Shown piece after piece: positions 3,497 through 50,518 of a DNA stretch of 64,000 nucleotides. Both the position numbers and the translations under genes were made by a program. Under the pieces are notes generated by a model that was not told where the DNA came from, searched no databases, and was given only the letters and a program-made list of their open reading frames with translations. The number at the start of each line of letters is the position of its first letter. The stretch's first letter is position 1. This stretch comes from Nitrospirota bacterium (GTDB lineage: Bacteria > Nitrospirota > Thermodesulfovibrionia > Thermodesulfovibrionales > Dissulfurispiraceae): positions 1 to 64,000 of the forward strand of contig JBFMHE010000015.1 of NCBI GenBank assembly GCA_040752355.1. Reading direction: 5' to 3'.

Positions 3497-3655
3497 CCGG
3501 GCTTCTTTATTATAGCAACCAAACGACCAATCCGGAATATATAATTCTTCTAAAGCATCTAGCGAAATGAGCGGAGAGAGGGGTGTTAGTGACGCTAAAG
3601 GCAGAGATGTCTAAAGGTCAGGAGTTCGTGTTTAGAATTTAAAGCGTGTGATCAC

Positions 3656-30733: not shown

Positions 30734-30923
30734 GATCGTCCCTTGTGCTCAATCGTAATCGAAGCCGGTGGCGCTGCGATGTGATGGCTATCACAACTTT
30801 TCCAAGACGGTAGTCACCGCACTCATTTTATCGGCGACTTCGGAACGAACTTTACCCTATCTCTAAACATACTTATATATAAAGCGGTTACATTAAGAGT
30901 ATCTATATATAAAGTTGGAGCCA

Positions 30924-31101
30924 CTAACGAAATAACGCAGCTTAGAGTCGGGCGAGGCATAGTATGTGGAGCGGTATCAGCAGCCCAAAGCGGAATCATG
31001 GATGATGGAGCGGGCTGGTGCCTCGGAGGACGGCTCGGATGCCGTCCGAGAATGAGCGAACATACTGTGCCTCGTCCGACTCCCCCTGCTCACTTCGTTA
31101 G
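30924..31101 (+). repeat. Dispersed structured element, copy 1
   Basis: A 178-base element in the gap between pilC and metF. Outer pair CTAACGAA/TTCGTTAG; a 23-bp main helix (30945-30967 with 31060-31082) whose only two departures are G-U wobbles; an inner helix CAGCCC/GGGCTG (30981, 31012) capped by ATCAT-GG-ATGAT; and a third hairpin GGACGGC/GCCGTCC with a GGA bulge closed by CTC/GAG. Boxes GGAGCGG and GAGAATGAGCGAA flank the junction. The same boxes recur near 38.2 and 49.1 kb. The rest of the pilC-metF gap (30734-30923) is AT-rich with a repeated tatatataaag and no gene. Confidence 0.8.
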
Positions 31102-31116
31102 ATGTCCTTAGCACCA

Positions 31117-38109: not shown

Positions 38110-38341
38110 AGGAGGGGGCAGAGGTGAGTCATTTGGAGCGGCATGGGCAGCCCAAGCGGAGCCCCGCCCCAAAAAGACGTTGTCTTTTTGGGGACCCCAT
38201 AGAGATGCAGAGGGCTCCCGGAAAGTCGTAGACTTTTCGGGAATTCCGGAGCGGGTCGGTACGACTCGATTCCGAGCTGCCCCGCCTCGGAGGTCGCATC
38301 GACCGAGAATGAGCGAAAATGACTCACCTCTGCCCCCTCCT
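38110..38341 (+). repeat. Dispersed structured element, copy 2 (expanded)
   Basis: A 232-base element between folD and hdrC. The main helix is a perfect 25-bp inverted repeat (38110-38134 with 38317-38341) of quite different sequence from the other copies. Inside are the shared boxes GGAGCGG (38135), AAGCGGA, CCTCGGAGG and GAGAATGAGCGAA, plus two extra perfect hairpins: CCCCAAAAAGAC-GTT-GTCTTTTTGGGG and CCCGAAAAGTC-like around 38216-38242. The third hairpin is GGTCG-CAT-CGACC with the GGA bulge. The flanks (37972-38109, 38342-38419) show a 7-bp inverted repeat and CCCCGG/CCGGGG but no gene. Confidence 0.8.
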
Positions 38342-48976: not shown

Positions 48977-48985
48977 TTAGAGCCC

Positions 48986-49156
48986 CTGACGAACTGAAAG
49001 AGCTTGGGGTCGGACGAGGTACAGTAGGTGAGCGGTTTTAGCAGCCTGAAGCGAAGTCATGGATGACGAAGCGAGCTGGTACCTCGGAGGTCGTATCGAC
49101 CGAGAATGAGTCGAACATACTGTGCTTCGTCCGGCTCCCTTTCCTCATTCTGTTAG
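48986..49156 (+). repeat. Dispersed structured element, copy 3
   Basis: A 171-base element between the Usp operon and the sigma-54 activator gene. Main helix 49006-49029 with 49115-49138: apart from one mismatch, the non-Watson-Crick positions are G-U wobbles. Inner hairpin GTCAT-GG-ATGAC corresponds to ATCAT-GG-ATGAT in copy 1 (a compensated base pair). Third hairpin GGTCG-TAT-CGACC with GGA bulge; boxes GAGCGG, ACCTCGGAGG and GAGAATGAGTCGAA are shared. Outer CTGACGAA and TTCTGTTAG resemble the ends of copy 1. Confidence 0.8.
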
Positions 49157-49162
49157 ACGCTC

Positions 49163-50518
49163 TTAATCGATCCCGTACTCTTTCATCTTTTTCCAGAGGA
49201 CCTTTCTGCTTATGCCAAGCCGGGCGGCTGCTTCGATCTTCTTGCCGCCCGATTCATTGAGCGCCTTGATGATCCTCTGCCGCTCGAAGCATTTGAGGCT
49301 CGCTTCGAGGGTGAGGTCCTGGGTAATGCAGGGGGTCCTGTCGGTATCGTCCGATATCTCGTCGGGGAGATGCCTGAGATCGATAACCCCATCTTTTGAA
49401 AGCACCACGGCCCGCTCGATCGCATGCTTCAGCTCGCGCACATTGCCCGGGTAGCTATAGGCGAGGAGAGCGTCGTAGGCGAACTGTGAGAGCCTCACCT
49501 CGGTCTTGTTCAGCCGCTCCTTGAAGAGCTTGAGGAAATGGTCGATGAGATAGGGGATATCCTCTTTTCTCTCCCTGAGCGGCGGCAGGGCGATCGGCAC
49601 GATATTGATCCTGTAGAACAGGTCCTCTCTGAAGGCGCCTGCCGCGACGCTCTCCTTCAGGCTCTTGCGGGTGGCATAAATGCCCCGTACATCGACCCGC
49701 ACCGGCGTATTCCCTCCCAAGCGCGTTATGGTATTGTCCTCCAGCACCCGCAGCAGTTTCGGCTGGAGCGCTACCGGGATATCGCCGATCTCGTCGAAAA
49801 AGATGGTGCCGCCGCTCGCGTATTCGAATTTGCCCTTCCTCAATTCGGTGGCGCCGGTGAAGGCCCCCCGCTCGTGGCCGAAGAGCTCGGACTCGAAGAG
49901 GGTATCGGGAATGGCCGCGCAGTTGATCTTGACGAACTGCTTGGTGTTCCGCTGGCTCAGCCGATGGATGGCATTCGCCACCAGCTCCTTGCCGGTCCCG
50001 CTCTCGCCCTGAATCAGCACCGGGACATCGGTCCCGGCAACAGCGGCGATGCGGTCGAAGACGTCGCGCATCACGGGGCTTACGCCGATAATGCTCTCGA
50101 ACTCCACCTTCTCCTTGAGGGTCTCCCTGAGGAAGGTGACCTCGTCCTCGAGCTTCCGGTAGCGGAAGAAGCGCTCGATGGCTATGAGGAGCTCGTCATT
50201 GGCAAAGGGCTTTCCGATATAGTCGAAAGCGCCCTCTTTCATCGCCTGGACCGCATCCTTCACCTCTGCATATCCGGTGATGATGATGACCCCGGTTTCG
50301 GGAGCGATCTCTTTCGTTCTCTTGAGAAGGGAGAATCCGTCCTTGCCGGGAAGCTTCAGGTCGGTAATGACGAGGTCGAACCGCTCTTTTTCGAGAGCGC
50401 GGAACCCCTCATCCCCCGTGGCGCAGAGCGAAACGGTATAGCCCTCGGAAGTGAGCAGGTGCTCCATGCCGAGCCGCATGATCGGCTCGTCTTCGACGAT
50501 GAGGAGCTGCTTTTTCAT
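49163..50518 (-). CDS. Sigma-54-dependent response regulator (NtrC family)
   Basis: A 451-residue activator: receiver (Asp in VITDLKLPGKDG), AAA+ domain with Walker A GESGTGKELVANAIH, GAFTGA loop in GHERGAFTGATEL and Walker B GGTIFFDEIG, and a Fis-type helix-turn-helix (KIEAAARLGISRKVLWKKM). The sensor I position reads YATRKSL instead of the usual AATN/AATH, which could affect ATP coupling. Its start overlaps the kinase stop by four bases. Confidence 0.94.
   Translation of the reverse strand: MKKQLLIVEDEPIMRLGMEHLLTSEGYTVSLCATGDEGFRALEKERFDLVITDLKLPGKDGFSLLKRTKEIAPETGVIIITGYAEVKDAVQAMKEGAFDYIGKPFANDELLIAIERFFRYRKLEDEVTFLRETLKEKVEFESIIGVSPVMRDVFDRIAAVAGTDVPVLIQGESGTGKELVANAIHRLSQRNTKQFVKINCAAIPDTLFESELFGHERGAFTGATELRKGKFEYASGGTIFFDEIGDIPVALQPKLLRVLEDNTITRLGGNTPVRVDVRGIYATRKSLKESVAAGAFREDLFYRINIVPIALPPLRERKEDIPYLIDHFLKLFKERLNKTEVRLSQFAYDALLAYSYPGNVRELKHAIERAVVLSKDGVIDLRHLPDEISDDTDRTPCITQDLTLEASLKCFERQRIIKALNESGGKKIEAAARLGISRKVLWKKMKEYGID

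Follow-up and report, generated by a model that had tools for sequence, protein, structure and literature searches.

The BOX repeats of Streptococcus pneumoniae are non-autonomous, intergenic, high-copy elements with a transcript predicted to fold, in which the outer parts form a stem and the internal modules are optional (PMC3049150). MITEs, including ERIC and Correia, are likewise short, intergenic and non-coding, with folded transcripts (PMC10969869). The dispersed extragenic palindromes of the REP/BIME/REPIN type are mobilised by RAYT/Y1 enzymes. Conserved RNA structure has also been reported for bcr1, a mobile short repeat of the Bacillus cereus group, which comes from another phylum and is likened to the present element by description only.

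The window analysed here, a stretch of 64,000 nucleotides on contig 15 of the genome of a Nitrospirota bacterium (G000), holds three copies of an element whose family is real, has not been described before and spans a class: structured interspersed repeats about 140 bases long, intergenic, present in dozens of copies per genome and lacking an Rfam entry. The element works like BOX in its conserved folding and optional modules, a likeness of description that implies no homology, but BOX varies in the number of tandem boxB units, whereas this family has single-hairpin modules at fixed junctions, a closing stem that is free to vary and a core that inverts within its locus. One subtype, termed A, resembles MITEs in having terminal inverted repeats and, perhaps, duplications of TWA; what the family conserves, however, is the folded core rather than the ends, and no IS that could be its partner was seen. 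Compared with REP, BIME and REPIN sequences the element is much larger and branched and conserves its core rather than its stem, and one genome with 31 copies has no Y1_Tnp match. The family makes the respective shares of RNA selection and template switching in the stem covariation of repeats directly testable, as both signatures coexist in one molecule and orthologous loci, inversions and empty sites are at hand.

Copies, fold and covariation

The common fold is a three-way junction of helices P1, P2 and P3 linked by conserved unpaired boxes. P1, the closing helix of 20-30 bp, is prolonged into the junction by two GC pairs beside a GA/GA motif; P2 carries a purine internal loop and a small hairpin, and P3 a GGA bulge. 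From 5' to 3' the parts are the P1 5' arm, then (G)GAGCGG, then P2, a bulge of 1-3 nt with GC/GC, a 3x3 purine loop GRA/GRA and the small hairpin, followed by the 3' side of P2, P3, AATGAGCGAA and the P1 3' arm. P3 itself reads CTC, the GGA bulge, a hairpin of 5-7 bp capped by a GGAT loop, and GAG. The conserved unpaired boxes are GAGCGG, CTCGGAG and GAGAATGAGCG, together with tandem G-A motifs; a k-turn or tandem-GA identity of the purine loops is plausible. The copies in the window are laid out as follows.

30918..31107 (end approximate), + strand: copy 1, subtype A, whole unit with imperfect terminal inverted repeats GAGCCACTAACGAAATAA ... TCACTTCGTTAGATGTCC
30945..30967, + strand: copy 1, P1 5' arm; partner 31060-31082; 23 bp, two of them G-U
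30968..31060, + strand: copy 1, core, from the GGAGCGG junction to the AATGAGCGAA junction
30973-30986 with 31012-31022, + strand: copy 1, P2, enclosing the GRA/GRA loop and the inner hairpin
30990-31011, + strand: copy 1, inner hairpin
31022-31050, + strand: copy 1, P3 with its GGA bulge
31051-31060, + strand: copy 1, AATGAGCGAA junction
31060..31082, + strand: copy 1, P1 3' arm
38110..38341, + strand: copy 2, subtype B, core as in copy 1, without the subtype-A terminal repeats
38110-38134 with 38318-38341, + strand: copy 2, P1, distinct in sequence and perfectly paired
38161..38247, + strand: copy 2, optional hairpin module in place of the small inner hairpin; also in L108 and L284
38256..38275, + strand: copy 2, optional hairpin module TCGGTACGACTCGATTCCGA on the 3' side of P2; found in many copies of the own genome
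48980..49162, + strand: copy 3, subtype A, unit bounded by terminal repeats
48977-48979 and 49163-49165: copy 3, TTA flanks
49006..49029, + strand: copy 3, P1 5' arm; partner 49115-49138
49030..49114, + strand: copy 3, core
49049-49072, 49083-49104 and 49105-49114, + strand: copy 3, inner hairpin, P3 and junction
49115..49138, + strand: copy 3, P1 3' arm

The original prediction had placed copies at 30924, 38110 and 48986, and all three are present with their shared boxes. Its span for copy 1, 30924-31101, was right in location and too short in extent, the terminal repeats running from 30918 to about 31107. A single plan for the three copies holds for the core; copy 2 is of the other subtype and has two extra hairpin modules. 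Closing helices of 23, 25 and 24 bp had been proposed: copy 1 has 23 bp, copy 2 a perfectly paired 5' arm of 25 nt and copy 3 23-24 bp. As predicted, both non-Watson-Crick pairs in the copy 1 helix are G-U and the departures in copy 3 are mostly wobbles (four G-U, one G-A); the compensated pair in the inner hairpin and the switch of P3 from GGACGGC/GCCGTCC to GGTCG/CGACC are likewise real. Neither the MITE-like terminal repeats of copies 1 and 3 nor the in-place inversion of the core in relatives had been foreseen.

The own genome contains 46 matching places by blastn and about 48 copies by a covariance model made from 27 copies (48 matches at E <= 3e-9), so the dispersed element proposed from three copies has dozens more. 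Among 60 genomes searched, 32 were positive, the own genome included, with up to 54 copies per genome and a range of 0-54 among related genomes. In the phylum, 77 of 396 genomes had a match at E <= 1e-5, all but one of them in the same class. None of 22 genomes from other phyla had a match in a search that was run there without a positive control, and the phages, plasmids and viral contigs searched contained no family member. Rfam 15 at its gathering threshold returned no family over the copies in the window, and relaxing the search to E <= 1 to 5 gave nothing credible, only chance sRNA and miRNA matches, in agreement with the earlier statement that no described family shows this pattern; an Rfam intron match, which would have pointed to a group II intron derivative, was likewise absent from the copies. 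A tmRNA match in L153 in the relaxed search proved to be the adjacent gene and not the element.

The fold is beyond chance, with strand-fold z-scores of -8.5 to -10.2 in three members, and RNAalifold recovered the identical plan without being given it. In the 27 copies, 95.4% of cells are paired as against 82.8% after shuffling, and the covariation score is 0.421 as against 0.183 for shuffled and <= 0.10 for slid controls. The 75 copies from relatives behave in the same way (93.3% paired versus 70.9%, covariation score 0.595 versus 0.18), with both sides changed in 47 of 50 pairs; the predicted covariation thus remained strong as sequences were added. Of the alignments used, A1 is a plain MAFFT alignment, and A3 was fitted to the model and is therefore biased towards it.

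Subtype A is MITE-like in its imperfect terminal repeats GAGCNYCTAACRNAATGA, for which the own genome has 44 forward matches as against 9 with a reversed control. Conserved terminal repeats are confined to this one own-genome subfamily and are absent from subtype B, which has the same core and an unrelated P1 that nevertheless pairs, and from most relatives. The TWA flanks of subtype-A units are direct in 9 of 24 cases and inverted in 2 of 24 (permutation p = 0.07), which is no more than suggestive of a TWA target duplication; no consistent target duplication was seen in relatives. Optional modules and hairpin alleles reassort among copies.

Insertion, inversion and strand asymmetry

With genes called by a simple codon-usage finder, nearly every copy falls between genes, and there is no fixed gene partner; at 80 other loci with an orthologue of the gene next to copy 1, no copy lay close by. 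Elsewhere, at some loci, the element has been retained in place across genera, and there are intergenic sites at which different species carry copies unrelated to one another. Two congeners lack both copies of L205, one site being there a junction between genes only a few bases apart, and several sites occupied in G017 are empty in G004, G026 or G030. In being short intergenic insertions that orthologous sites may lack, the copies agree with MITEs. In G004 the empty allele of the L242 site contains neither P1 arm; insertions bring P1 along, and P1 as a pre-existing palindromic target for core insertion was rejected.

At eight clear orthologous loci with both flanks aligned, the core was found inverted in place at four and unchanged in orientation at the others.

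Inversion locus I: G009 L228 and G017 L237 versus G012 L180 and G026 L244
Inversion locus II: L231/L211
Inversion locus III: L194/L240
Inversion locus IV: L233 versus L249 and L195
Unchanged core orientation: L185/L202, L245/L196, L238/L195 and L156/L208

The pairs L188/L246 and L234/L247 were excluded as orthologues, their cores and P1 being different. At locus II an asymmetric inner segment of P1 moved together with the core, and at locus IV several neighbouring P1 bases changed at once. Orthologous P1 arms change jointly, for example from TATAGGG/CCCTATA to TATAAGG/CCTTATA, and in paralogues with cores 97-100% identical P1 can differ greatly yet still pairs. Template switching between inverted repeats yields arm homogenisation and spacer inversion (PMC8604942), and a role in forming and preserving RNA stems has also been proposed for it (PMC8794818). 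We infer that template switching lies behind both the homogenisation of P1 and the inversion of the core. Because it leaves this footprint, the covariation of P1 is by itself no proof of RNA selection; the pairing of the closing helix stands as predicted, its use as sole evidence of selection does not.

Under a strand-symmetric alignment scoring that gives G-T and A-C the same weight, P1 in 131 copies contains, on the + strand, 2678 Watson-Crick, 218 G-U, 58 A-C and 172 other pairs, a G-U to A-C ratio of about 4:1; the G-U count is inflated, since copies and orthologues are interrelated and the effective events therefore fewer. The excess persists when subtype A is removed (144:51) and extends to the core (11:1 in P3, 23:0 at its base); between L185 and L202 two P1 pairs were converted, both into G-U. 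Because mutation alone should be symmetrical, the excess of G-U over A-C in P1 argues that the + strand fold is selected, as RNA or as single-stranded DNA. An RNA function appears likely. The wobbles that had been read as favouring + strand RNA do single out the strand but not the molecule, as + strand single-stranded DNA would explain them equally well. Transcription of the + strand is an assumption, since no promoter or terminator signature was found that sets it apart. An element-specific promoter was rejected, promoters in relatives showing no difference between strands, and so was P1 as an intrinsic terminator, T-runs behind P1 being rare on both strands. Between co-directional genes the + strand lies antisense rather than sense in a ratio of 66:26 (p = 3.7e-5), a count also inflated, with a few orthologues counted repeatedly.

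Origin and nature of the element

On balance, we consider it probable that the family consists of old, class-wide, MITE/BOX-like non-autonomous repeats shaped by insertion as a unit, template switching and + strand selection. The family would have spread as non-autonomous interspersed repeats with a MITE- or BOX-like lifestyle. Comparison shows that in each copy the + strand adopts the conserved three-way junction, and the empty sites show that new copies enter intergenic DNA as a single unit with both P1 arms; one own-genome subfamily, to judge from its terminal repeats, seems to have been mobilised as a MITE, the target duplication being only suggestive. The resident P1 inverted repeat would then drive template switching during replication, arm being copied onto arm and the core sometimes flipped, and purifying selection would preserve the + strand core boxes, tolerating G-U and not A-C, as the asymmetry indicates. 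The folded strand would most likely be RNA, recognised or processed in trans and harmful within host messages; sense copies would be removed for this reason, and copies antisense to surrounding genes preferentially retained, as the orientation bias suggests.

Neither a transposase with these terminal repeats nor, in the own genome, an IS-spaced pair of matching ones was found; MITEs can outlive their IS. Spread of a retro-mobile, SINE-like RNA by reverse transcriptase would suit the RNA-like fold, the high copy number and the lack of an internal transposase, but RVT_1 (PF00078) has no match in the high-copy genomes G000, G009, G012, G017, G022 and G027 and genomes with reverse transcriptases often carry no copies, which largely refutes it and leaves it a very faint prospect. 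Many relatives have Y1 transposases, and the long palindromic arms, intergenic repeats and + strand asymmetry would also fit a hairpin that serves as single-stranded DNA substrate of such an enzyme (e.g. Y1/RAYT) with no RNA role; we hold this to be quite unlikely, given that G022 has 31 copies and no Y1_Tnp (PF01797) match, that many Y1-bearing genomes are copy-free, and that a conserved core with a variable stem is the reverse of REP/REPIN. Both enzymes were rejected as universal mobilisers, reverse transcriptase being absent from those six high-copy genomes and Y1 from G022. An ordinary MITE, its palindromes covarying through template switching alone and its fold unselected, would account for the subtype-A terminal repeats, the possible TWA duplication, and the arm homogenisation and spacer inversion (PMC8604942, PMC8794818), but template switching does not predict G-U in excess of A-C, the unpaired boxes are conserved class-wide and conserved cores have unrelated termini; this we judge more improbable still.

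Somewhat less unlikely, though doubtful, is that the element acts as a functional non-coding RNA, or as a ribozyme- or riboswitch-like RNA of a new class, and that each copy is kept because it benefits the host, dispersal being secondary. The highly conserved unpaired boxes, the tandem G-A motifs, the strand asymmetry and the retention of certain loci across genera all speak for a host RNA, whereas gene context is not fixed, congeners gain and lose copies, related genomes range from 0 to 54 of them, and the bias is away from host sense transcripts. More speculatively, and with a chance that we put low but not below that of a host RNA, the element could represent a structured RNA of a new class, either with catalytic activity or with a dedicated protein partner, spreading as an interspersed element and lying as an invertible cassette in a self-repairing palindrome. 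As the cassette would be invertible within the palindrome, each locus could switch its RNA between sense and antisense; were the folded strand an active RNA, the class would be new.

Flanking and derivative sequences

The right-hand TTA of copy 3 (49163-49165) is the stop codon of a minus-strand gene (49163-50518), so that the unit abuts the gene end. Window positions 3553-3570 resemble a subtype-A terminal repeat with two mismatches, with no core nearby, and are possibly a relic. In L278 (G000 C9:46038-46087) and L277 (G000 C9, about 1563-1661) both subtype-A terminal repeats are present and the structured core is missing; these are deletion derivatives. In G017 the copies in L239, L243 and L234 (at 3072) are near-identical and share flank well past P1, so a larger unit was duplicated there. 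Another repeat, with GGCAGGTGTGCYGAAAAGRCTTT, occurs in the same intergenic sites of relatives (L205 at about 1640-1800, L313 at about 330-530, and the L424 insert) and is apparently unrelated to the element. At L006 (G000 C4, copy 1522-1678) the inverted repeat extends 27 bp past its usual end into otherwise unique flank, with AAATCCGAAATACTAAGAGGGTCTAAC present on each side, as though the flank had been copied inversely.
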